NCBI GenBank assembly: GCA_021812785.1
Contig: JAKAMR010000061.1
Span: forward strand, 1-17,742
Origin: Nitrospirota bacterium
Lineage (GTDB): Bacteria > Nitrospirota > Thermodesulfovibrionia > Thermodesulfovibrionales > JdFR-88
Length of the DNA stretch: 17,742 bases
Direction of reading: 5' to 3'
Below, in pieces: positions 2,541 to 14,484 of this stretch (positions within the stretch are counted from its first letter, which is position 1; each line of letters opens with the position of its first letter). The notes under the pieces are model-generated. The model was not told the origin of the DNA and ran no database searches. It was given only the letters and a program-made list of their open reading frames with translations. The translations under genes were made by a program, and so were the position numbers.

Positions 2541-3791
2541 ATGGAGCCTCCCGGTATACTAGAAGCACTTCTTATAATTCTGTCGATCTTCGCCCTTGCG
2601 GCGCTATCCAGCGTGGAGGCTTCGTTCATCTCCGCCAACCGCTATAAGATAAGAAGTCTGGTGGAGAAGAACAACAGGCGGGCCATTGTCCTTAAGAAGA
2701 TACTGGATCAGCCGGACCGGCTTTTCAGCGCTGTCATCGTTTCCGCAAACATGCTTACCATATTTGCCACGGCCCTTGGCACCCTGGTGGCCGTCAAGAT
2801 GCTGGGCAGCAAGGGCGTGATAATCTCCACCGCCGTCATGACGTTTCTGACCGTCGTGTTCGGCGAGCTTACGCCAAAGACCATGGCGCTGGCGCACGCG
2901 GACGAGTTCGCCCTTTCGCTGGCCAGGCCGGTGCAGATATATATGAAGCTCATAAGTCCGCTGGTGTGGTTCTTCAGCCGTTTTCTGAACCTGATAGGAA
3001 TAAAACAGGAGCCTCTGCCTTCATATCTGACCGTGGATGAGATAAAGGCCGCCATAACCGTTGGCGAAGAGGCCGGTACGCTGGAAGAGGAAGAAAAGGA
3101 GCTTCTGCACCGGGTCTTTGAGTTCGGCGACATGATGGTATCAGAGGTCATGGTGCCCAGGACCGAGATCGTATCCATCCCGAGCACCGCCTCCATTTCA
3201 GAGGCCATGGCGCTGGTGAAGGAAGAGGGCTATTCCAGGTATCCCGTGATCGGGGAAAGCATCGATGACATATCAGGGATACTATATATAAAAGACATCC
3301 TTATAAAGATGGCCGAAGGCACGGTGAATGAGACCACCCCGGTAACGGAGATCATGAGGGAAACCTACTTTGTCCCGGAAAACAAGATGCTCTCGGAACT
3401 CTTGGACGAGATGCAGAAAAAGAAGTTCCAGATCGCCATCGTGATAGACGAATATGGAGGCACGGACGGCCTTATCACTTTCGAGGACATAATGGAGGAG
3501 ATCGTGGGCGGCCTTCAGGACGAGTTCGAGGAGATCGAGGCCGAACGGGAGATCGAGATAGTGGACGAGCGGACTTTCATAGTCTCCGGACAGACCGGGA
3601 TGGATGAGGTGAACGAGCTGGTAGGGGCCGATATGAAATCGGCGGAGTTCCACACCATAGGGGGGTTCGTGTTCGGGCTGTTCGGCAGGCTCCCAAAGGT
3701 GGGAGAGCAGGTGAGATATCAGAACCTGCGCTTCCTCATCCTCGAAATGGAGGAGAGGAAGATATCAAGGCTTAAGATAACGAAGCTTTAA
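2541..3791 (+). CDS. CNNM/CorC-type membrane protein (DUF21, CBS pair, CorC_HlyC)
   Basis: A 416-aa protein of the 'hemolysin'/CorC/CNNM family, whose characterised members move or sense Mg2+ or other divalent ions at the inner membrane. The DUF21 region (about 1-155) has hydrophobic segments near 8-30, 62-85, 92-108 and 132-152 and the conserved FGELTPKT motif at 107-114. Two CBS repeats follow: about 203-258 (starting VMVPRTEI) and 268-322 (VIDEYGGTDGLIT). The C-terminal CorC_HlyC domain is about 337-412. The start lies 13 bp after the isocitrate dehydrogenase stop and lacks a clear Shine-Dalgarno, so translation may depend on coupling. No functional tie to citrate metabolism is evident; it may simply share the transcript. 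Ion specificity cannot be read from sequence. Confidence 0.9.
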   Translation: MEPPGILEALLIILSIFALAALSSVEASFISANRYKIRSLVEKNNRRAIVLKKILDQPDRLFSAVIVSANMLTIFATALGTLVAVKMLGSKGVIISTAVMTFLTVVFGELTPKTMALAHADEFALSLARPVQIYMKLISPLVWFFSRFLNLIGIKQEPLPSYLTVDEIKAAITVGEEAGTLEEEEKELLHRVFEFGDMMVSEVMVPRTEIVSIPSTASISEAMALVKEEGYSRYPVIGESIDDISGILYIKDILIKMAEGTVNETTPVTEIMRETYFVPENKMLSELLDEMQKKKFQIAIVIDEYGGTDGLITFEDIMEEIVGGLQDEFEEIEAEREIEIVDERTFIVSGQTGMDEVNELVGADMKSAEFHTIGGFVFGLFGRLPKVGEQVRYQNLRFLILEMEERKISRLKITKL

Positions 3792-3991: not shown

Positions 3992-6900
3992 TCATGGGAA
4001 TTGCGGGCCCGAATAAGGGAAAAACTGGGGCCCCTTTGCGACTCCCACCAACTCGGATACGGTGCCGTCTCCGTTATTGGTCACCCACACATTGCCGGAA
4101 GAGTCTATCGCTACATCGACAGGGTTTGTGCCTACCGTGTATGAATTGACGACAGTGCCGGATGAGTTCAATTCCGTAACCGTATTGCCGCCTTTATTTG
4201 CCACCCAGATATTGCCGGCGGAGTCGATCGCCACTCCTTCAGGAGCTGCGCCCAATGTATATGGCGAAGACGAAGTTGACGGAGCGGTCAATTTAACTAT
4301 CGTCCCTGCGGAAGTTGATGGATTAGAAGCCGCTAAATTCGTTGTCCATGCATTGCCGGAGGCGTCTATAGCCATGCCCTCAGGGCCTGTCATGTTGGTG
4401 GAAAACAAGTTACCCGGCGAACTGTACGAGCTTGAGCTCAATAATTCGGTTACCTCGCCGTAGCCATAATCATTATATCCAACCCACACATTGCTGGCGG
4501 CATCAATCGCCAGGCCGGTGGCCACACCTCCTCCGAAGCCGGCAGAGAATGTGTTCGATGACGTGTAATTTGGCGCCAGGAATTCGTACAGATTTGTCAT
4601 GGTGCCGGTATAAGTGTTTGTCACCCAGACATTGCCGGAGGCGTCTATGGCTATGCCCCCCGGGCCAGTCATACTGGGCGTGGCCATATTGAATGCCGCG
4701 CTTGTTGCATAGCCAGAACTTTTTAATAATTCGGTTATGGAGGTGCCGGTGCCCGTTACCCAGACATTGCCGGAGGCGTCTATGGCTATGTACCCCGCAC
4801 CCGTTATATTGCCGCCGCCAAAAGTGCCTATTACGCTGCCGGAAGAGTCCATTTCTTCCACCGTGCCGTCGCCGCTGTTGGCCACCCAGATATGGCCGGA
4901 GGCGTCTATGGCTATCCCCAGTGGATGGATCCCTGCCGTAAACGTGTTGGTGCCGCCCACGGAGGGTGAAGTTGTAGTGAAGCTCCATGAATATACGCTT
5001 GCAAGCGCCACATTGTCGGCGCCATAAGCCCCCGTCATGATGGTGGCGGTGTATGAGGTGCCGGTGCTGAGCGGGAATGATGGGGTAAAGGTCGCCGTAT
5101 TGGTGGAGGCGTCGAAAGTCACTGCTCCGGTTACCTGTGTCCCGTTAGGCCCGGTAATGGTGAATGTCCCCGAATTGATAGTCGAGGAATTCATTGCCGC
5201 GCTAAAGGTTGCCGTCACAGCCGGGGAGGTGCTTACGCCGGTTGCATTGTTAGCGGGGCTTACGGAGCTTACGCTTGGAGCGGTCAAGGTATAACTGCCG
5301 CCCGTAATGGCGACCGGATCAGGGACTTGGAAAAAGGCCTGTTTGCCGCCGGCCGTTTTCGGGTTAATTACGATGACACCGTCGGCGCCGTTCGCGCCCT
5401 TTCCTATGACCCAGGCGTTGCCTGACGAATCGAAGGCTATCTGCTCCGCGGCCTGCGAAACCTGAAACCCGGGCACGGTAACGCCCAGATCATAATGGTT
5501 TATCAGGGTGCCGTTCGAAGAGCTGTATTCGTAAGCACTTGAAGAAGCAGCGCCGTATTGCGTGATCGCGATCCAGATGTTGCCGGAAGGATCAACGGCC
5601 ATCGGAAACCCGTTGAAAGGAACTTGTTTATCACTTTCCAAACTCCCCTGGGATTCTACCGTATAATTTGCAACTGATCCGCCCGGCTTTATCTCGCTGA
5701 GATCCGGAGTGCCGGCAGGGTTGGCTGAAGCATAAAATCCAGCAAAGGCCCATAGGTTGCCGGCCGGGTCCGTGGCGATCGAGTTAAAGTTCTGCAGCCC
5801 AGGATCGGGAACCCCGCCTGGCAGAGAGATGAGATTGCCCGAGGAAGAACTGAATTCCGCAACGTTCACACTGAAAGACTGCCCATAGGTGGGGAACCCC
5901 CCTCCCAATGCATCAACCCAGAGGTTGCCGGAATGGTCCACGGCAATCGGACCGGGACTACTGATAGAGTTGCCCGATCCGCTATATGTATCGAAATATC
6001 TGATATACGGGTCCTGGCTTTGATTCAGGCTGCAGCTTGCGGTATTAAGTTCTATTATCGCCCCGTCCCACCAGTCATATATTTGAGAGGTCCCGTTTTC
6101 ATAATAACCGCCTTCGCCATCGCCCCACCCGGGGTAAGAGCGTGGAGGTGTGGTTTCTGTTACCGGCGTGTAATCATAACCTACCGCGCTCGTAACCCAC
6201 ACATTGTTTTTATAATCGACGGCGAGATAATTCGAATCGTTATAATTCGGTCTGTTTCCGGAAGAGACGCTGCCAGTATGTAAATAGCAGGTCTGCTCGG
6301 ATGCCCCCGAGGGACTGAGCTCGGTAACCACGCCGGCGCCGCTGACCCATACATTGCCGTTTGAATCAACGGCTATTGAATCCGGGGCCGGACCTGCGTT
6401 ATAGGGTCCAGATACATTGCCTGACGAATCGAGTTTTCTGGCCGTGCCGTCGCCACTCGCGATCCACACAGAAAAATTTGCCGGTATGTTAAAGTCCGGC
6501 TTGATGTTCGTTAATCCCGAAGGCAGGGCAGGAGGCGTCTCGGCATTTGCCAATCCGGCCTGGTCGTTATTATTCAGCGTGCCGCTGATATTTACGGTGC
6601 CGCCGCCGTTGCCGGTAAATTGGAAACCATCAAACGTAAAGTTCCCGTTTCCGCCGTTGCCTGTTAACGCGGCCAAAAGGGCTTGCTTTGCCCCATTGTT
6701 AGGAACGCTTAAATAGTTAAGCAGGTCCTGCATCGCCTGGTTGTATTTTTCCCCAGTTTGGTTTTTAACAGTGTCCGCAAGGTCCTGAAGCAGGGCCAAT
6801 ATTTCATTAATAAGCTGGGAATTCGCAGGGTTTGAAAGCGATATCGAGTTTAAATCCTGCCCCTGCATGCCGTTAAATAACTGGCCGATATAGTAGAGCA

Positions 6901-7372
6901 TCTGTTTAAGATAGAAATCCACCTGAGTGGAATTCAAATTGGTGTTTATGGTCCCATCGGCGTTAAACAGCGCCTCGCCTATTAAGGTGGTCAAGGGAGT
7001 TATGTAAACAGTCGACGTGCCTCCGGGAACAAGAAATCCAACCATGGTGGGCGCAGCCGTGCTGGACCCTTTATCGCTGAAGGTCCCACCGGAAACATAG
7101 AGCAGATAGTAATCGGAAGAATTGTAATTGCTTATAGTTAAAGCGAAACTTCCATCCGATTGGGTGTATCCGGTCCCCGCCTGGGCGAGACCCGAAGAAG
7201 TAACCTGATATACGATTATGGATGCGCCCGATACGGGACCGTCTATCACCTTGCCGCTTATGGAGGCCGTGCCGCCGCCACCGCCCCCCCCGCACCCGGC
7301 AAGAGAGATCAACAGGACCGGTAAAAACAGCCAGATCAATACTTTTTTTAATTCATCAAGCTCTGCCTTCAT
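3992..7372 (-). CDS. Giant modular lipoprotein: two Vgb/NHL-type propellers with an Ig-like domain between
   Basis: A 1126-aa predicted surface or periplasmic lipoprotein of unknown function. Order: signal peptide 1-26 with lipobox LAGC (lipidated C27); a glycine run; a carboxypeptidase-regulatory-like beta domain (about 36-115); a helical segment (126-235); propeller 1 (about 300-690), whose six blades carry the I-A-x-D-x-S/A-G-N-x-W-V signature; a Big_5-like Ig domain (about 700-802, starting VSSVSPANNATGV); and propeller 2 (about 812-1110) with seven blades such as IAIDASGNVWV. Such blades occur in NHL, virginiamycin B lyase-like and related repeat proteins; no catalytic residues can be assigned. 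The ATG follows GGGGAGGA at close spacing. The gene is last in the minus-strand cluster and paralogous to the lipoprotein gene at 7699-10800. It ends short after the last blade with two GPQF motifs and has no sorting tail. A role in attachment, sensing or polymer binding is only a guess. Confidence 0.85.
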   Translation of the reverse strand: MKAELDELKKVLIWLFLPVLLISLAGCGGGGGGGTASISGKVIDGPVSGASIIVYQVTSSGLAQAGTGYTQSDGSFALTISNYNSSDYYLLYVSGGTFSDKGSSTAAPTMVGFLVPGGTSTVYITPLTTLIGEALFNADGTINTNLNSTQVDFYLKQMLYYIGQLFNGMQGQDLNSISLSNPANSQLINEILALLQDLADTVKNQTGEKYNQAMQDLLNYLSVPNNGAKQALLAALTGNGGNGNFTFDGFQFTGNGGGTVNISGTLNNNDQAGLANAETPPALPSGLTNIKPDFNIPANFSVWIASGDGTARKLDSSGNVSGPYNAGPAPDSIAVDSNGNVWVSGAGVVTELSPSGASEQTCYLHTGSVSSGNRPNYNDSNYLAVDYKNNVWVTSAVGYDYTPVTETTPPRSYPGWGDGEGGYYENGTSQIYDWWDGAIIELNTASCSLNQSQDPYIRYFDTYSGSGNSISSPGPIAVDHSGNLWVDALGGGFPTYGQSFSVNVAEFSSSSGNLISLPGGVPDPGLQNFNSIATDPAGNLWAFAGFYASANPAGTPDLSEIKPGGSVANYTVESQGSLESDKQVPFNGFPMAVDPSGNIWIAITQYGAASSSAYEYSSSNGTLINHYDLGVTVPGFQVSQAAEQIAFDSSGNAWVIGKGANGADGVIVINPKTAGGKQAFFQVPDPVAITGGSYTLTAPSVSSVSPANNATGVSTSPAVTATFSAAMNSSTINSGTFTITGPNGTQVTGAVTFDASTNTATFTPSFPLSTGTSYTATIMTGAYGADNVALASVYSWSFTTTSPSVGGTNTFTAGIHPLGIAIDASGHIWVANSGDGTVEEMDSSGSVIGTFGGGNITGAGYIAIDASGNVWVTGTGTSITELLKSSGYATSAAFNMATPSMTGPGGIAIDASGNVWVTNTYTGTMTNLYEFLAPNYTSSNTFSAGFGGGVATGLAIDAASNVWVGYNDYGYGEVTELLSSSSYSSPGNLFSTNMTGPEGMAIDASGNAWTTNLAASNPSTSAGTIVKLTAPSTSSSPYTLGAAPEGVAIDSAGNIWVANKGGNTVTELNSSGTVVNSYTVGTNPVDVAIDSSGNVWVTNNGDGTVSELVGVAKGPQFFPYSGPQFP
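4062..4930 (-). repeat. Seven propeller-blade repeats visible at DNA level
   Basis: On the + strand a core like TTGCCGGAGGCGTCTATGG recurs near 4351, 4630, 4765 and 4891, with more diverged copies near 4091, 4211 and 4491. Each encodes the blade core ID-A/S-SGN-x-WV on the minus strand. Copies near 4630 and 4765 are almost identical over about 27 bp, pointing to recent blade duplication or conversion. This is protein-coding repetition, not a CRISPR array: spacing is irregular and the reading frame is kept. Confidence 0.8.
7284..7291 (-). repeat. G8 homopolymer just after the lipobox cysteine
   Basis: Eight consecutive C on the + strand (G8 in the coding strand) encode part of the glycine run directly after C27 of the 1126-aa lipoprotein. 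The paralogue has only five C at the matching place. A tract of this length can slip during replication and would shift the frame near the N-terminus. Confidence 0.6.
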
Positions 7373-7384
7373 ATGTTCCTCCCC

Positions 7385-7402
7385 GGGGACGCAAAATCCC
7401 CC
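7385..7402 (-). promoter_or_regulatory. Leader hairpin next to the ribosome binding site of the 1126-aa lipoprotein gene
   Basis: Read on the minus strand, GGGGA and TCCCC pair around the loop TTTTGCG, directly before the GGGGAGGA ribosome binding site. The same hairpin with a changed loop stands before the paralogous gene at 10813-10830. It could control translation, or simply be inherited with the duplication. It matches no riboswitch class I know. Confidence 0.4.
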
Positions 7403-7438
7403 TTTTGAAAAATTTTTTAATCTCCGGGCCTCGAATCC

Positions 7439-7666
7439 TTATTCGTCATAATCCTTATATTTCCTTTTTCCCTTAAGCGTCTTGAATCACAGATTTTTAT
7501 TCTTATTTAAAATCCATTAAAATGGTTTTGCCTGTCAAGATGATATTTATAACTTCAAAGTAAATGACTAAACCGGCTTTCCCATGAACGAGCTCTCCAC
7601 AAGTCCTGAGGCGATATCCGGGTCCATGGCGTCCCGTCTGTAAATGCGGATTATGTAACTTTCCAT
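7439..7666 (-). pseudogene. Decayed copy of the small YIIRIYRRD gene
   Basis: An ATG at 7666, behind an excellent AGGAGGT ribosome binding site, opens a 32-codon frame (7568-7666) beginning MESYIIRIYRRD and ending at a TAG. It matches the first half of the intact 67-aa gene at 10867-11070. The C-terminal codons KYKDYDE and stop survive at 7439-7462. The middle (about 7463-7567) is AT-rich, about 24 bp longer than in the intact copy, and unrelated to it. It contains TTGACA (7533-7538, minus) and the near-palindrome AAAACCATT-TT-AATGGATTTT, but no good -10 box at normal spacing. Either the gene died after the cassette duplicated, or the 32-aa peptide is still made; the first is more likely. This feature and the leader hairpin account for the whole gap between the two lipoprotein genes. 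Confidence 0.8.
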
Positions 7667-7698
7667 CAATTCAAACCTCCTTTAAGAGGAGAACGGAC

Positions 7699-10600
7699 TC
7701 AATGGTAAACGATCTCGCTGAGGCTCCCCATTCCTGAGTACGATGTGGTGTTCAGAATACCGGTCCATGTGGAGCCGTCCGTTGAATCAAAGATGCCGCT
7801 GTTGTAATTGATTACGCCGTTGCCGGCCGCAACGTACGTGTTGTTCCCATAAATGATATTGGAATAATAAAAACTTGTGTTCGAGGAAGCTGCACTGTTC
7901 CAGGTCTTCCCGTCAGTGGACCGGAGGCCCGGTCCGCTCCCGGCGGCACCGGGGGTCACAAAAAAGACCCCGTTTGCAAAATAGGCCCCCGTGCAGTCAA
8001 AGCTGGTGCTGCTGTAGCCGGAGGCGCTCCAGTGGACCCCGTCTGTGGAGTATGAAATATTGCAGGATGGAGGGCTTTGGACTCCCTGCGCCAGGATGTA
8101 CAGGCCATTTCCATAGGCTATACCGGCTGGCGAATTGGACTCCGGGACCAGTGTCCAGTTGACCCCGTCACTGGAATAGTAGAACCCGTTATACGACGAT
8201 ACGAAGAAAAGACCGTTCAAATAAGCGACAGAGTGGGGGTTGAGCTGCGGGTCATTAAAAGAGTGCCATGTCTGGTCTGATAATGTGTAGCTGTCGATGT
8301 ATTCGCCCGACTCCGCTACCACGTAGACGCCCTTTCCAAAGACGGCGCCCGCAATGCCATAGATGCTTCCGCCATGTGTGTTGCCGGTATAGGCTGTCCA
8401 GTTGGATCCGTCCGCTGACACATAGTAATGGGATGCGTACTGGTCTATCGCCATGAAGGTGCCCGTGCCGTTATCAAAGGCGATGCCTTCGATCGGAGTT
8501 GATCCATTTGGCGCACTGTATGCCTGCGCCCATGTCCGCCCATCGCTTGAGGTAAGGATCGCGGAATTGGAGCCGGAGTTGCCCACCGCGACCCATTTGC
8601 CGTCTCCATAGGCCACGCCCGTGATGTGTGAGGAGTTGTTGGCGCCATCATAAACGAGGTTCCAGTTGGCCCCATCGGACGAATTGAGGATATAGGAGGT
8701 GGAAAAATCGCCAGCCAGGGCAATGAACTGATGGCCGGAGGAGGAGCCTCCCGCAGAGCCGCCCCCGGACCCGTTGCCGGAAGAGCCGCCGGAGTTGTTT
8801 GAGGCGCTTGCGCTAATGGCAATCGCAACCGGATCGGCCACATTATAAACAGCTTGTTTGCCGGAAGACGGATTTATCTCCGTAACGCCCGCAATCCCGC
8901 CCTGATAGCTGTCATGGATGATCCAGGCATCGCCGGAGGGGTCAAAGGCTATCGTACCTTGTTCCGGCTTGGCCCAATATCCTATATTATAATTTTTTAT
9001 CTCCGAGCCGGATGAATTCCATTCGATGGCGCTCAGGCCGGCCTCGCCGCCGGTCCAGATATTGCCCGAAGGGTCGACCGCAACGGTGTCCGGCCCGTAA
9101 CCCGCATTGAATTCGGAGTATTTTTTTGTGGATATATTGAATTCGCCCACTCCCGCCGGAGCTTTTGCACCCACCTGGTTATCCATGACCCAAACGTTGC
9201 CGGCTGGATCAAAGGCCAGCGAGGATAACTGGTCCTCTTGAATGGGTCCCTGCAACAGAGTGCCGGCGGGACTGACCTCCGTTAAATTAGTGGTAAAATT
9301 AACCGCGTTAAGCGGACCGGCGCTGATAACCCATATATTGCCTGAAGGGTCTACGGCAATCGGGCCAGGGCTGTCCGTTTGGCCATTGGTCAGGGAATGG
9401 ATATCGATCGTTTTTTCTATCGCGCAACTGGATGGGTTAAGCTCGATAACAGAGCCGTGCCAATCCGTTTCCGTGGTGGGGGTGAGGATCCCTTCCTCGC
9501 CATATCCGTTATTATATTGCGAAGAACTGCCTATGGTAAGCGGGTCGGATGTGTACCCGAATATGTCCGTGACCCACACATTGCCGGAAGGATCGGTGGC
9601 TACATAATTTGAGTCCAAAGAGTCCATGTAGGCGCTTCCATCTCCGGTATTCAGACTGCAGGTCCGTAAATGGTTTCCTGACGGGTCAAGCTCGGTGACA
9701 ACTGCATCTCCTGCCACCCATACATTTCCGGAGGGGTCTATGGCGATCGAATCCGGACCGTTGCCAACAGTATAAGTCCCCAGCTTGTTGCCCGAGGCAT
9801 CGAGCTTCGTGACTGTGCCAGGGGTCCCCTGGCCTGAATTGTTTACGACCCAGACCGAAAAATTAGTGGGGACGGAAAAAGTGGCCGGGATATTGGCTAC
9901 TCCCAAAGACGGCGGCTGCTTTTTCAGGTTTCCCAGATCTGTCTGGTCATTGTTGTTCAGGGTGCCCGAGATGTTTATAGTGCCTCCGTTGCCGCCGGTA
10001 AAATTGAAATTGATGAAAGAAAAATTGCCCCCGTTCGATGCGGCCCCAAGTTCCTTTCCGAAAGTGCCGGGGTTATTGCCGATGTAGTTGCCAAGGTCTT
10101 TCATTGCCTGGCCGTAACCTTCCCCCGTTTGGCCGGCCACATCATTTGCAAGCTCTTGCAGTATGCCGTTTAGCTCCGCCAGAAGCTGGTCAAGGTTGGT
10201 CTGGCCTGTGGGATCGGAAGAGGATATGCCGTTCAGGCTGTTGCCGCCCAGCGCCTGGAATATCTGGCCCAGGACGGCCAGCATCTGATTAAGGGCGGCG
10301 TCCACCTGAGCGGAATTGAGGTTAGGGTTCAAGACCCCGTTAGAAAACAGGTCCTCTCCTATCAGGGTGGTTATGGGGGTTATGAATACCTGGTGCGACC
10401 CTCCGGGGGCAAGAAATCCCACCATGTCCGGAGACCCGGTGCTGTTGCCGTTATTGTCGAATGTGCCGCCAGAAACAAAAAGTATGTAGTAATCGGCAGA
10501 ATTGTAATTGGGAATGCTTAAAGAAAAACTCCCGTCCGAACCGGTTGACCCCGTGCCCACCTTATTAAAACCAGCGGAGGTAACCTGGTAGACGGTTATC

Positions 10601-10800
10601 GACGCGTTTGCCACGGGACCGTCTATTACCTTGCCGCTTATGGAGGTTGTGCCGCCGCCACCGCTACCCCCGCACCCGGCAAGAGAGAGCAGCAGGACCG
10701 GTAAAAACAGCCAGATAAATGCCTTTTTAACTAAAAAATCATAACAGATACTCCGCAGCTTGCCACAGGGTGATTCATTTTCATCAAGCTCTGCCTTCAA
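7699..10800 (-). CDS. Giant modular lipoprotein: Vgb/NHL-type propeller plus Asp-box-like propeller
   Basis: A 1033-aa paralogue of the neighbouring 1126-aa lipoprotein. Order: unusually long n-region (1-26), hydrophobic segment, lipobox LAGC with C43; carboxypeptidase-regulatory-like domain (about 52-130); helical segment (140-255); propeller 1 (about 313-660) with six blades such as SIAIDPSGNVWV; a Gly/Ser linker (666-688); then about eight repeats of 43 residues with the S-x-D-G-x-x-W motif at 707, 751, 795, 876, 918, 961 and 1006, plus a degenerate one near 840. The last part resembles BNR/Asp-box (sialidase-type) propellers; no glycosidase active site is visible. The start codon is TTG with GGAGG just upstream, and alignment with the ATG of the paralogue supports it. 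Ligand unknown. It lies 66 bp after the small gene and likely shares its transcript. Confidence 0.85.
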   Translation of the reverse strand: MKAELDENESPCGKLRSICYDFLVKKAFIWLFLPVLLLSLAGCGGSGGGGTTSISGKVIDGPVANASITVYQVTSAGFNKVGTGSTGSDGSFSLSIPNYNSADYYILFVSGGTFDNNGNSTGSPDMVGFLAPGGSHQVFITPITTLIGEDLFSNGVLNPNLNSAQVDAALNQMLAVLGQIFQALGGNSLNGISSSDPTGQTNLDQLLAELNGILQELANDVAGQTGEGYGQAMKDLGNYIGNNPGTFGKELGAASNGGNFSFINFNFTGGNGGTINISGTLNNNDQTDLGNLKKQPPSLGVANIPATFSVPTNFSVWVVNNSGQGTPGTVTKLDASGNKLGTYTVGNGPDSIAIDPSGNVWVAGDAVVTELDPSGNHLRTCSLNTGDGSAYMDSLDSNYVATDPSGNVWVTDIFGYTSDPLTIGSSSQYNNGYGEEGILTPTTETDWHGSVIELNPSSCAIEKTIDIHSLTNGQTDSPGPIAVDPSGNIWVISAGPLNAVNFTTNLTEVSPAGTLLQGPIQEDQLSSLAFDPAGNVWVMDNQVGAKAPAGVGEFNISTKKYSEFNAGYGPDTVAVDPSGNIWTGGEAGLSAIEWNSSGSEIKNYNIGYWAKPEQGTIAFDPSGDAWIIHDSYQGGIAGVTEINPSSGKQAVYNVADPVAIAISASASNNSGGSSGNGSGGGSAGGSSSGHQFIALAGDFSTSYILNSSDGANWNLVYDGANNSSHITGVAYGDGKWVAVGNSGSNSAILTSSDGRTWAQAYSAPNGSTPIEGIAFDNGTGTFMAIDQYASHYYVSADGSNWTAYTGNTHGGSIYGIAGAVFGKGVYVVAESGEYIDSYTLSDQTWHSFNDPQLNPHSVAYLNGLFFVSSYNGFYYSSDGVNWTLVPESNSPAGIAYGNGLYILAQGVQSPPSCNISYSTDGVHWSASGYSSTSFDCTGAYFANGVFFVTPGAAGSGPGLRSTDGKTWNSAASSNTSFYYSNIIYGNNTYVAAGNGVINYNSGIFDSTDGSTWTGILNTTSYSGMGSLSEIVYH
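10751..10779 (-). repeat. Copy of a dispersed palindrome-like repeat inside the signal-peptide coding region
   Basis: These 29 bp match 14485-14513 at 24 positions, including 14 identical bases (CAGGGTGATTCATT). The copy sits within residues 8-24 of the 1033-aa lipoprotein, a block of 17 codons that replaces one codon in the paralogue. It looks like an in-frame repeat insertion into the n-region of the signal peptide. Confidence 0.65.
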
Positions 10801-10812
10801 GTGTTCCTCCCT

Positions 10813-10830
10813 GGGGACGTGAAAATCCCC
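10813..10830 (-). promoter_or_regulatory. Leader hairpin next to the ribosome binding site of the 1033-aa lipoprotein gene
   Basis: On the minus strand GGGGA and TCCCC pair around the loop TTTTCACG, one or two nucleotides before the GGGAGG ribosome binding site of the TTG-start gene. It is the counterpart of the hairpin at 7385-7402; stem kept, loop changed. Confidence 0.4.
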
Positions 10831-10866
10831 TTCTGGAAAATTTTTTTTAAACTTTTGCCTTAAATT

Positions 10867-11070
10867 CTATTCGTCATAATCCTTATATTTGGGTGGCCCG
10901 GTTTTTTTGGATGCCAGGTCCGCTTCCGTGGATTTTCTTAAAACATCCAGAATTTCCCTGATGCTCGAAAAGACGACCGGCTTTTTCAGGGACGAGCCCT
11001 CCACAAGACCCGAAACGCTGTCAGGGTTCAGGGTGTCCCGCCTGTAAATGCGGATTATGTAGCTTTCCAC
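10867..11070 (-). CDS. Small protein with YIIRIYRRD motif, function unknown
   Basis: A 67-aa protein starting VESYIIRIYRRD and ending in a charged tail (KYKDYDE). The GTG at 11070 is chosen over the ATG at 11109 for two reasons: AGGGGAG lies 7 nt before it, and the decayed copy at 7439-7666 starts with ATG behind a perfect ribosome binding site at exactly this codon. The pattern of a beta strand with paired arginines, a G-L-V-E segment, then a hydrophobic stretch (VVFSSIREILDVLRKS) suggests a compact alpha/beta fold. I recall small proteins of this type in Nitrospirota-like genomes but no function. No cysteines or signal peptide. It stands between the BTAD regulator and the lipoprotein gene, 122 bp and 66 bp away, so a regulatory partner role is possible but unproven. 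Confidence 0.75.
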   Translation of the reverse strand: MESYIIRIYRRDTLNPDSVSGLVEGSSLKKPVVFSSIREILDVLRKSTEADLASKKTGPPKYKDYDE

Positions 11071-11152
11071 AATATGTCTCCCCTGCTTTCCGGGGCCAAA
11101 GTCCGGCACTCGAAGACATGAAGGCCCGCACGGATATCAAAACACGCGGCAA

Positions 11153-11174
11153 CCTACAGATGACCTACAGATGA
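11153..11174 (-). promoter_or_regulatory. Tandem 11-bp direct repeat, candidate operator of the BTAD regulator
   Basis: On the minus strand TCATCTGTAGG occurs twice back to back. It starts about 20 bp after the stop of the regulator and lies 83 bp before the start of the small gene. SARP-family regulators (ActII-ORF4, DnrI, AfsR) bind direct repeats spaced 11 bp that overlap the -35 region. The linked regulator has the same OmpR-type DNA-binding domain plus BTAD layout. A clean -10 box at the classic distance is missing; TTTGAT/GATATC about 11-15 bp downstream is the nearest. Confidence 0.5.
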
Positions 11175-11192: not shown

Positions 11193-14100
11193 TTAAAAAA
11201 TGGATTTGTAAATCTTTTCAGTCGTGGGGGAAGGATTGAGTCCCAGGATTTCGGAAAGCGCCTTCCGGCATTTTTCATAGGCCCTGGCCGCCTCGCCACG
11301 CCTGCCAAGGGCTATCTGGCACAGCATCAGGTTCTGGTAAAGTTCTTCAACCAGGCTGTCCAATTCCAGGCCCTTTTCGAACATTTCTACAGCAGCTTCA
11401 AATTGCCCGGCCCGCATCAGATATTTGCCGGCCTTTGTGACCAGACCAAGGAGCCTGTTTTTGGTGCGCTCCCGCGCCGCCATTGCCCATGGCTGCAACG
11501 GGTCCGATGGCAAAAAGTCTCCCTTGTGCAGGCCGATGGCTTTTTGGGTGAGGTCCATTGCTTTTTTGGAAAGAGAGACTGCTTCGGCCTCGACGCCGGT
11601 TTTCACACCACTTTTCCATAAGCTTTCGGCCTGCTCCATGACCTGCATGATGGACTTTAAATCCGTCCAGCAGTGTTTTTCATCCAGGGAAACCAGGCCT
11701 CCGCTCACACGAATGGCCTTGTCTCCGATTATCCGCCTTAAACGCAAACAGGTTATCTCGCAAGACTTGTGCGCCAGATCGCCCTCGGCGTCAGGCCAGA
11801 GATAATCTATGATCTTTTCTTCGGGGGTGTCCTTATGGCCCAGGGCGATCAGCAATTTTAAAAGCAGCAGGGGCTTTTGCTGCGGCTTGCCGTGGGGCTC
11901 CAGCGATTTCGTACCGGCTATGACCACACGAAATTCCCCAAGCGTGTAGACTTTAACCGGCCACGGCCAGTTCTCCACTTCTACCGGCGCGGCGTACTCT
12001 GTTAAGCCCCGTTTGCGTACAAGCTCCCGCGCATAGTGCGGCTCTATTTCCGCCTGAAGGGCCTTTGCGCAAAGCGCGGCCATTACCGGCGGGTCCCACC
12101 ACCAGGTGAAACTGAAATAATTCTGTTGCCGTCCCATGCGAAACCCTTCACGAAGAAATGCCAAGCCCTGCGCTTCCTCCCCCTTGTCAAAGGAGAACTG
12201 CGCCCGCGCCAAAGCGCACATGAAATCGAACATCCTGGAGCCGGTGGACAGCGATTCTACAGATCGAAGATGCTCTTCTGCCTCTCCCAGCAGACCCAGC
12301 GCGTGTTTTATCTGCGCGGATTCGAAATAGCACAGCGCCTCCGCATAAGGATATTTCGTTTCATTGGCATATTTAAGCGAGGCCTCGGCATGGGCGGCGG
12401 CCTGCACCAGGTTGCCGCCCATGAATTCGCGGTATGCCAAAACGAAAAAAAAGTGGCTCAAACCGATCCTGCCGCGGATGTTTGCCCTTTTCTGGCCGTA
12501 AAGGAACTCATCGGCTTTTTTAAAATCTCCATTCATGAGCGCGGCGAAGGCCCCGACCACCACCCAGTGTTGGTCCCAGACGTGCACACCCGTCTTTTCC
12601 GCAAGTTCGCTCCCGATAGACAGATTTTCGAGCGCCGTCTCCGGAGAAGGAGTAATAAAAAGATTATTTATGGCATGAAGACCCAGCCAGCCGATCTTGA
12701 AAAGCGGCGAGATATCCGGCAATGCGGCCACCTCGCGGATATCTTCCGTTAAAAGAACGGATTTTTTGAAATCTCCCCTCCAGCCGTAAAAATATGTGGC
12801 GAAAGTGCTCGTCTGGACCTGGCTGGCCGGGTCTCCAAAACCCTTTGAGAGCTTAAGCGCTTTTCCCGCCCATTTTTCAGCATCAGGGTGCCCCGGACGG
12901 CAAGACACCATGGCGCACATCATGCTGGAGGCCACCTTGGCCTCGATCTGAATGGACGGGAACCGGAAGCCTGGACCCATGAGCGAGTAAATGCGGTCTA
13001 TCCAGGCGCCGAGAGTGGAAAAATCGTCCCACTCGTAGAGATAGCTGTCCACGATAAAGGACCATGAAAGGAGAGTGCCGGTCAAATCCCCCCCGGAGAC
13101 GAATTGCTGCAAGGCCTTTTCCAGGTGGCTCCTTGCCTGGGCCGGATCAAATGCCATCCGGCATACGCCCAGCCAAAAGAAAAGCCATGGCGGGCTCTCA
13201 AGCAGTTTTTTAGCTGGAAGTCTTGATATCCACCCTTCCAGAGTCCTGGCCCGACCCTGGTTCATAAGCGCTTCGGCGTTTTTCAGGGCGAGTGCGGAAA
13301 GCGCCTCCCAGTCTTCGCACTCCATCCAAAGCTCCGCCGCGTCCTCTATCTGGCCCGCATCCTCAAGCAGCGCCGCCCCGGCCCTTTTTGCGGCAGAGAT
13401 CTCTTCCTTTGAATAGGTCTCCGCTGCTTTGGCGTTCAGGAACTCCCTGAAGAGAGGATGTATCTGGTAAACGGGCGGTACATTGCGCCTCTCAATGAAA
13501 TAATTGCTGCGGCTGAGGCCTGCAAGAATTTTCCCGGCCGCTTCGAGCCCGGTGATCTTTTCTGCCAGGCTGGCCGGTATCCTGGGAAGAAATGACGCCT
13601 TCAAAAGGAACTCCACGGTCATTCTGTCCATTTTCCCAAGTATTTCACCGGCAAAATAATCGAATATCTTTTCAGGCCGGACAGAGGCAAGCGATTCCGG
13701 CGCGTCCTCCATCTTCATCTCCCGCATCAGAAGCACCAGCCCTGCCGCCCAGCCCCGGGTTTTTTCGTGCAGCTTTTGCAGTATGTCCATGGGTATGGTT
13801 TTTTTGCCGTGAGTATTGACGAATACCTCGGACTCGCTAAGTCCGAACTTTATATCTTCCCAGCCGATGGACTCCATATTTCTATTTGAAAGCAGGTATA
13901 CCAGCCGGGCAGGGGGGTCATAACGGCTTATCAGTATGCACTGGATCCCGGGGGGAATGAGGAGGATGGCTTTGGCGGTTATCTCCTCGAAAAGCGGGCC
14001 CTCCTGGACCTCATGACAATTATCAAACACAATGATGTACGGAGGTTTTAGCCTGCCGTACAGGTTCTCGAAATAGTTTGCAATAAATGCTGAGAGCCCG

Positions 14101-14435
14101 CCTGTGTATTCCGCCGTGAACAGGGGCAGGGGTTTTTGTTGTTTTCGGGATCTTTTGTTTTTGCCCTCCGGTTTCCCCGCGGCCAGTCCCATGTAGTAAA
14201 AAAAAGAGGCCGGGTCAGCGTCTGTCTTGTCGATCTGGTACCAGAGGTGAGGAATCTTGCGGGAACTCAGATAGCTGGCGATCAGTGTTGTCTTTCCGGC
14301 CCCGGCGGGGCCGGACACCCATATGGCAGGATTCTCCCTCATCGAATCCAGGGAACTGAAAAGTTTTTCTCTCGGGAAAAAACCTGAAATAACCGGGCGC
14401 GTTATCTTTGCCGGAGGCGCCTGAAAATCTCTCAC
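11193..14435 (-). CDS. STAND-type ATPase regulator with TPR region and C-terminal OmpR-like/BTAD module
   Basis: A transcriptional regulator of about 1080 aa. The N-terminal MalT-like NTPase has Walker A GPAGAGKT (about 42-49), Walker B IIVFDN (about 134-139), the sensor-like LISRYDPP and the GWAAGL motif seen in MalT/LuxR-type STAND proteins. A long helical, TPR-like middle (about 340-800) would bind a ligand or partner. The C-terminus, from about 823, has an OmpR/PhoB-like winged helix (VKVYTLGEF, LWPDAEGD, LRLRRIIG) followed by the BTAD helical domain (about 925-1080), as in SARP/AfsR activators but at the C-terminal end. GTG at 14435 is preferred because a run of six G precedes it; a TTG at 14453 would add six residues but has no ribosome binding site. 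It heads the minus-strand cluster, so it probably controls the small gene and lipoproteins downstream. An inducer cannot be inferred. Confidence 0.9.
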   Translation of the reverse strand: MRDFQAPPAKITRPVISGFFPREKLFSSLDSMRENPAIWVSGPAGAGKTTLIASYLSSRKIPHLWYQIDKTDADPASFFYYMGLAAGKPEGKNKRSRKQQKPLPLFTAEYTGGLSAFIANYFENLYGRLKPPYIIVFDNCHEVQEGPLFEEITAKAILLIPPGIQCILISRYDPPARLVYLLSNRNMESIGWEDIKFGLSESEVFVNTHGKKTIPMDILQKLHEKTRGWAAGLVLLMREMKMEDAPESLASVRPEKIFDYFAGEILGKMDRMTVEFLLKASFLPRIPASLAEKITGLEAAGKILAGLSRSNYFIERRNVPPVYQIHPLFREFLNAKAAETYSKEEISAAKRAGAALLEDAGQIEDAAELWMECEDWEALSALALKNAEALMNQGRARTLEGWISRLPAKKLLESPPWLFFWLGVCRMAFDPAQARSHLEKALQQFVSGGDLTGTLLSWSFIVDSYLYEWDDFSTLGAWIDRIYSLMGPGFRFPSIQIEAKVASSMMCAMVSCRPGHPDAEKWAGKALKLSKGFGDPASQVQTSTFATYFYGWRGDFKKSVLLTEDIREVAALPDISPLFKIGWLGLHAINNLFITPSPETALENLSIGSELAEKTGVHVWDQHWVVVGAFAALMNGDFKKADEFLYGQKRANIRGRIGLSHFFFVLAYREFMGGNLVQAAAHAEASLKYANETKYPYAEALCYFESAQIKHALGLLGEAEEHLRSVESLSTGSRMFDFMCALARAQFSFDKGEEAQGLAFLREGFRMGRQQNYFSFTWWWDPPVMAALCAKALQAEIEPHYARELVRKRGLTEYAAPVEVENWPWPVKVYTLGEFRVVIAGTKSLEPHGKPQQKPLLLLKLLIALGHKDTPEEKIIDYLWPDAEGDLAHKSCEITCLRLRRIIGDKAIRVSGGLVSLDEKHCWTDLKSIMQVMEQAESLWKSGVKTGVEAEAVSLSKKAMDLTQKAIGLHKGDFLPSDPLQPWAMAARERTKNRLLGLVTKAGKYLMRAGQFEAAVEMFEKGLELDSLVEELYQNLMLCQIALGRRGEAARAYEKCRKALSEILGLNPSPTTEKIYKSIF

Positions 14436-14484
14436 TATCCCCCCATGGGACAAATCAAAAAAATGAAATTTATATTTTTAACTT

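Follow-up and report, generated by a model that had tools for sequence, protein, structure and literature searches.

In a 17,742-nucleotide stretch of Nitrospirota DNA (the window), taken from a 2.2-Mb draft genome that is 76% complete, a locus with a STAND-type regulator, a gene for a small YIIRIYRR protein and two large lipoprotein genes is one case of a recurrent module made up of regulator, operator-promoter, small protein and, usually, an exported protein. Its parts follow one another as regulator, small gene, lipoprotein A, broken small gene and lipoprotein B, all on the minus strand, the gene order that an earlier note on this DNA had described. We lean towards a local activator circuit in which a SARP-like activator would drive the exported-protein operon and the small protein would tune the regulator. 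Once activated, the regulator would bind a pair of 11-bp direct repeats (ATCTGTA) shortly past the end of its own gene and recruit RNA polymerase to a promoter with a -10 and no -35. This promoter would start an operon encoding the small protein and the exported lipoproteins; in the window, it would probably serve both units, from the small gene through to lipoprotein B, the dead small gene included. The small protein would most likely take effect through the regulator or that protein's signalling, letting the operon's first product tune its own induction; the exported proteins would probably be propeller-type binding proteins that function in the envelope. More generally, large exported-lipoprotein genes of Nitrospirota often lie in small operons led by a tiny conserved protein and probably switched on by a neighbouring regulator through a repeated motif. 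The parts of the window locus are the following.

11193..14453, minus strand: STAND-type regulator with a MalT-like switch domain, TPRs and a C-terminal SARP-type DNA-binding and BTAD head, predicted from Pfam and PDB matches.
11155..11172, minus strand: operator ATCTGTA-N4-ATCTGTA, a direct repeat of 11-bp period with 0 mismatches, 20 bp past the regulator stop codon.
11136..11141, minus strand: -10-like hexamer TTTGAT, placed from an alignment of 75 sites (the others read TAnnnT) and itself a weak match.
10867..11070, minus strand: YIIRIYRR small protein gene, 67 aa, GTG start, assigned by sequence and profile, with an AlphaFold 2 (AF2) model.
10813..10830, minus strand: hairpin abutting the ribosome binding site of lipoprotein A.
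7699..10800, minus strand: lipoprotein A, 1033 aa, TTG start, with a lipobox, an SGL/NHL-type propeller region and a C-terminal part unlike that of B.
7568..7666, minus strand: broken small gene of unit B, the first 32 codons and then a stop (profile match 1e-10).
7439..7462, minus strand: remnant of the last codons of the broken small gene, a block shared with the intact small gene.
7385..7401, minus strand: hairpin abutting the ribosome binding site of lipoprotein B.
3992..7372, minus strand: lipoprotein B, 1126 aa, with a lipobox, a propeller region, a Big_5 domain and a second propeller region.

Linkage of the small gene to the regulator

A profile of five small proteins (A1), run on 395 genomes of the phylum at E <= 0.01, matched 57 places in 40 genomes. 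A match to the window regulator at E <= 1e-40 was present in 34 of these 40 genomes, compared with 82 of the 395 overall; this search scored two candidates per genome, so that regulator copy numbers are lower bounds. The analysis covered 52 stretches around small-gene places, the place in genome G269 being left out. A second small-protein profile was made from 117 short homologues and enlarged with 65 matches from the loci. After removal of repeat copies of loci already counted (L004, L005 and L049), 63 small domains were counted at E < 1e-5, four of them found only via regulator loci and 59 by their own sequence (two of the 59, at 3511 and 3599 in L069, are overlapping halves of one damaged gene). 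A regulator match lay upstream on the same strand within 6 kb of 51 of the 59 domains, the chance expectation for a random gene being about 1% by a rough estimate that assumes ten regulators per 3-Mb genome. Across all 63 domains, 55 had an upstream regulator, in 30 cases within 700 bp; some of these matches are fragments from contig ends or broken genes (L057, L060, L065 and others). Small genes without an upstream regulator were those of L051 and L071, where a regulator match lies directly downstream, of L054, with only 720 bp of upstream sequence, and of L058, L066, L068, L081 and L082. The earlier note had proposed to look for this gene order in related genomes, and the small protein is indeed linked there to the BTAD regulator. 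The converse linkage fails: of 60 further regulator loci in which the first profile had called no small gene, 4 (L094, L098, L106 and L118) carry one, many of these stretches ending early. Across a tree of 84 regulators, presence or absence of a small gene switches 16 times. In a second phylum, 2 of 12 genomes had a small-gene match. The window's own genome holds a second module (L086:9028-13906, on contig G000:C14) with a regulator, a small protein, a lipoprotein with YVTN-like repeats, and a weaker site of 13.1 bits between them.

The operator-promoter and its regulator

Between the regulator and the small gene, the window reads TTCATCTGTAGGTCATCTGTAGGT. The operator at 11155-11172 in this sequence, which the earlier note had missed, scored 35.1 bits with a leave-one-locus-out matrix. 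Like 11-bp direct repeats precede the small gene in many loci and are absent from that position in several others. Over a total of 113 loci (1.36 Mb, with a few overlapping stretches), ATCTGTA-N4-ATCTGTA occurred 17, 20, 35 and 111 times with 0, 1, 2 and 3 mismatches, respectively, compared with 0, 0, 6 and 42 times for the consensus read backward. When 75 sites within 1.7 kb after a regulator were aligned on their repeats, a -10 appeared at a constant position (T at +31, A at +32 and T at +36, 0.90-0.95 bits), and the -35 position gave no signal besides the repeats themselves. A 38-bp matrix trained without the tested locus found a site of at least 12 bits in the 700 bp after 55 of 104 regulators, whereas the opposite strand gave 0 of 104 and shuffled sequences gave 0 of 520; the site was present after 33 of the 47 regulators with a downstream small gene and after 22 of the 57 without one. 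The consensus alone (at most 3 mismatches, within 600 bp) followed 44 of 105 regulators. Its controls gave 3 of 99 for intervals within the regulator gene itself, 0 of 105 for the opposite strand and 11 of 105 for intervals drawn at random from the same loci, which may fall on true sites. These counts are not fully independent because related genomes contribute to them. The operator-promoter lying between regulator and small gene supports the earlier proposal that the upstream protein controls the operon, which it probably does.

Sites were also found at small genes that lack an upstream regulator, namely in L058 (20.3 bits) and L081 (24.2 bits). The matrix found no site at the other five such genes, and L066, also without an upstream regulator, has a repeat of another heptamer. 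This heptamer, TTCCGGT, is repeated at the same 11-bp period ahead of the small gene in L047, L064 and L066 (two of these loci belong to one genome, the third to a genome from the same genus), and operator specificity therefore seems to drift. In the second phylum, the small genes of L158 and L159 each have a site with one mismatch ahead of them, and a third locus (L006/L160) reaches only 14.8 bits. Operator-like sites upstream of the regulator gene itself (L099:10319-10348 and L048:2496) suggest autoregulation in some loci. In the window's genome, a fuller pattern with at most 2 mismatches gave just two places, the window's own and one without clear repeats (backward control 0), so that the window regulator looks local, as far as an assembly 76% complete can tell.

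The regulator is predicted to be a STAND ATPase switch with a C-terminal SARP-type DNA-binding head. Its residues 14-422 match the MalT structure (PDB 8bob, 3e-24), its residues 854-1083 match the SARP structure of AfsR (PDB 8hvr, 2.6e-7), and its BTAD domain (Pfam PF03704) scores 71.3 bits against a gathering score of 22.1 (E 1.4e-19). Curated scores and domain order exclude AfsR or MalT proper: the AfsR whole-protein model (NCBIfam NF053617) gives 53.7 bits against a cut-off of 1430, with only residues 837-1085 matching, the MalT model (NCBIfam NF003420) gives 162.1 bits against 537, and the order is permuted relative to the large SARPs, in which an N-terminal SARP head is followed by NOD and TPR. 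The switch domain is like that of MalT of Escherichia coli, whereas the C-terminal head is SARP-type here and LuxR-type in MalT.

The target of AfsR, afsS, codes for a small protein. In Streptomyces, the AfsR-AfsS system comprises a SARP with NOD and TPR and two 11-bp direct repeats just upstream of the -10, as described in the accessible part of PMC10936776. The window regulator resembles this system, to the extent covered by that part, in being a STAND protein with a SARP-type head and with two 11-bp repeats before the -10 of its target; it differs in its permuted, C-terminal head, its heptamer ATCTGTA and its targets, which include exported proteins. Direct repeats of 11-bp period next to a -10, the mark of SARP-type promoters, are present in the window, and the spacing from heptamer to -10, which depends on how the heptamer is phased, is 13 bp as phased here compared with 8 bp at SARP promoters in the same portion of PMC10936776. 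Regulators of the SARP-LAL type such as PimR, as presented in excerpts of PMC5930380, likewise combine a SARP head with a large ATPase part and use heptamers with 4-nt spacers, but have an N-terminal head, the consensus CGGCAAG and antibiotic-gene targets. In these parts of both papers (PMC10936776, PMC5930380), SARP-type activation is described from Streptomyces antibiotic clusters; our data suggest the same promoter logic in Nitrospirota and one further phylum, with a domain-permuted regulator and exported-protein targets. Scanning for the operator-promoter makes it possible to predict what a large family of uncharacterised STAND regulators controls. No description of the module was found in the titles and abstract beginnings of the literature searched, and four peptide strings did not occur in the texts searched, most subscription papers being beyond reach in both cases.

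Binding and activation by the regulator are what we infer from this arrangement. The repeats occupy the place of a -35, so that a bound protein could block the polymerase and the regulator could repress the operon rather than activate it. We regard repression as improbable, given the missing -35 and the -10 at a fixed distance, as at SARP-activated promoters, and a head that resembles an activator's.

Exported targets and the role of the small protein

With a matrix trained on all loci, 105 sites reached at least 12 bits, and the next gene with a ribosome binding site was a small gene in 27 cases, signal-peptide-like in 42 and another gene in 25, none being found in 11. Of the four operator sites in locus L078, one lies ahead of the small gene and the other three ahead of signal-like genes; other loci have two or three sites. 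Scored with a crude custom script, the next gene of at least 150 aa after the small gene was signal-like in 33 of 40 cases, compared with 36 of 131 genes more than 4 kb away (Fisher p 6e-10). Pairs of small and exported gene occur twice under one regulator in L056 and L062, and these repeated units, with the four operators of L078, agree with the expandability that the earlier note had suspected. In a Pfam scan of 34 selected cargo proteins, the commonest matches were the propeller families SGL and NHL (6 each), and many other families matched once or twice. Lipoproteins A and B have a signal peptide with a lipobox cysteine according to a pattern script; together with the crude signal score, this suggests that both are exported. 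Matches to Pfam SGL, NHL and Reg_prop make A and B similar to propeller lipoproteins of the NHL/SMP-30 type, from which they differ in that A, B and a homologue in L037 carry unrelated C-terminal modules (19-27% alike) behind an old common N-terminal part.

The YIIRIYRR proteins are about 60-80 aa long, and 668 relatives were found. No credible Pfam match was seen among the 93 relatives scanned, the small protein of the window matched nothing in Pfam or NCBIfam, and the family had no sequence match in PDB. The AF2 model has three strands and one helix. An unnamed conserved microprotein family with hundreds of members thereby gains a genetic context and testable roles. Its domain is fused to PilZ in L046:3064-3504, L068:7978-8466 and L069:4615-5058, the fusions of L046 and L069 lying inside the module; L069 also carries a response-regulator receiver gene. 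In L054:703-2478, the small-protein domain and an outer-membrane efflux protein share one open frame, which an internal start ahead of a signal-like stretch may split. The small gene stands directly before the regulator, without cargo between them, in L051, L071 and L159. Together, the PilZ fusions and this position before the regulator point to a regulatory role of the small protein.

The small protein could instead serve the exported protein, as a cytosolic helper or translation coupler that is merely co-regulated, the regulator being no more than a switch. An exported-type start within 700 bp after 44 of the 63 small domains, with an overlap or a gap of at most 10 bp in 13 of them, fits such a helper, as does the joint repetition of small and exported gene in L056 and L062. 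We consider it rather unlikely, because cargo families vary widely while the small domain is conserved, the domain is found fused to PilZ and adjoining the regulator with no cargo between, and many operator sites precede exported genes that have no small gene.

Still less likely seems a role of the small protein in RNA binding, with the hairpin in the leader of the lipoprotein message as its target; we give this little credence. The weak structural neighbours of its model include many double-stranded-RNA-binding domains, and 5 of 6 leaders of the lipoprotein family have a stem of 5-6 pairs, of differing sequence, that ends 13-14 bases before the start codon and abuts the ribosome binding site. 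Among 31 background starts from nine loci, 9 had a hairpin, 7 of them in the same lipoprotein family (some being the same gene twice), and it occurred at 2 of the 24 starts outside that family. Whole leaders showed no unusual stability (z -1.4 to 1.5), and the hairpin is also present in L153, outside the module.

Our preferred reading, in which the small protein tunes the regulator, can be extended to the family as a whole, tentatively and with somewhat less than even confidence. The YIIRIYRR family would then be the dedicated partner of the STAND-SARP switch, forming a two-part device with a feedback microprotein across Nitrospirota exported-protein loci, under one operator code and tied to cyclic di-GMP through the PilZ fusion in some lineages.

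Two old lipoprotein paralogues with alike 5' ends

The two halves of the locus had been read as a tandem duplication sharing the small-gene start and end, the leader hairpin, the ribosome binding site, the lipoprotein start and about 650 lipoprotein residues. These shared elements were recovered, as nucleotide blocks of 94 nt at the small-gene start (82%), 23 nt at the small-gene end (100%), 67 nt of leader and start (87%) and 300 nt of early lipoprotein (72%), with the leader hairpin and ribosome binding site common to both units. The shared N-terminal part of the lipoproteins also stood, its extent being 605 aligned residues at 51%, compared with 19% over the 316 remaining (52% and 27% in a second alignment). 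The simple duplication did not hold. In a tree, the body of A grouped with L037, L039 and P0124 (100/100) and that of B with P0125 and P0127-P0134 (100/99), and only the 5' ends are alike. At four-fold degenerate sites, A and B were identical at 17 of 20 in the first 60 codons, at 35-47% in four bins to codon 650 and at 32% beyond, composition by itself predicting 29%; synonymous divergence, which the earlier note had named as a check, is thus near saturation in the bodies and argues against a recent duplication. P0125 joins a B-type body to an A-type start of about 45 residues, indicating exchange of 5' ends between units. A and B are therefore old paralogues whose 5' ends have been homogenised.

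If a single cassette had simply been duplicated in tandem not long ago, as an isolated event, the highly identical 5' blocks and the 17 of 20 four-fold sites would be explained. This reading is very hard to reconcile with bodies that are near saturation at such sites and lie in separate clades, with the composition of P0125 and with the recurrence of the module over the phylum, and we judge it extremely improbable. From the sequences, the likely history is that of two old tandem paralogues whose 5' ends recombine and of which B then lost its small gene. The broken small gene is present also in a second, slightly different assembly (L005), which makes an assembly error unlikely. A matrix scan found no operator belonging to unit B, and unit B therefore probably depends on the promoter of unit A, with which it would be co-transcribed.

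A survey of the lipoprotein family gave eight places in 6 of 12 family genomes. Five belong to the module, one of which, G387:C37, shows only the unit-B part; L153 and L155 have no regulator or small gene within 18-19 kb, and L154 begins at a contig end, its upstream side being cut off. Thus, the cassette proposed earlier holds for the small gene, which is tied to regulators, and not strictly for the lipoprotein family. Genome G387 contains a near-identical copy of the window's unit B (L156:1-770) and, on another contig (L049), a regulator start only 75% identical to the window regulator, which points to either two cassettes in G387 or a mixed bin.

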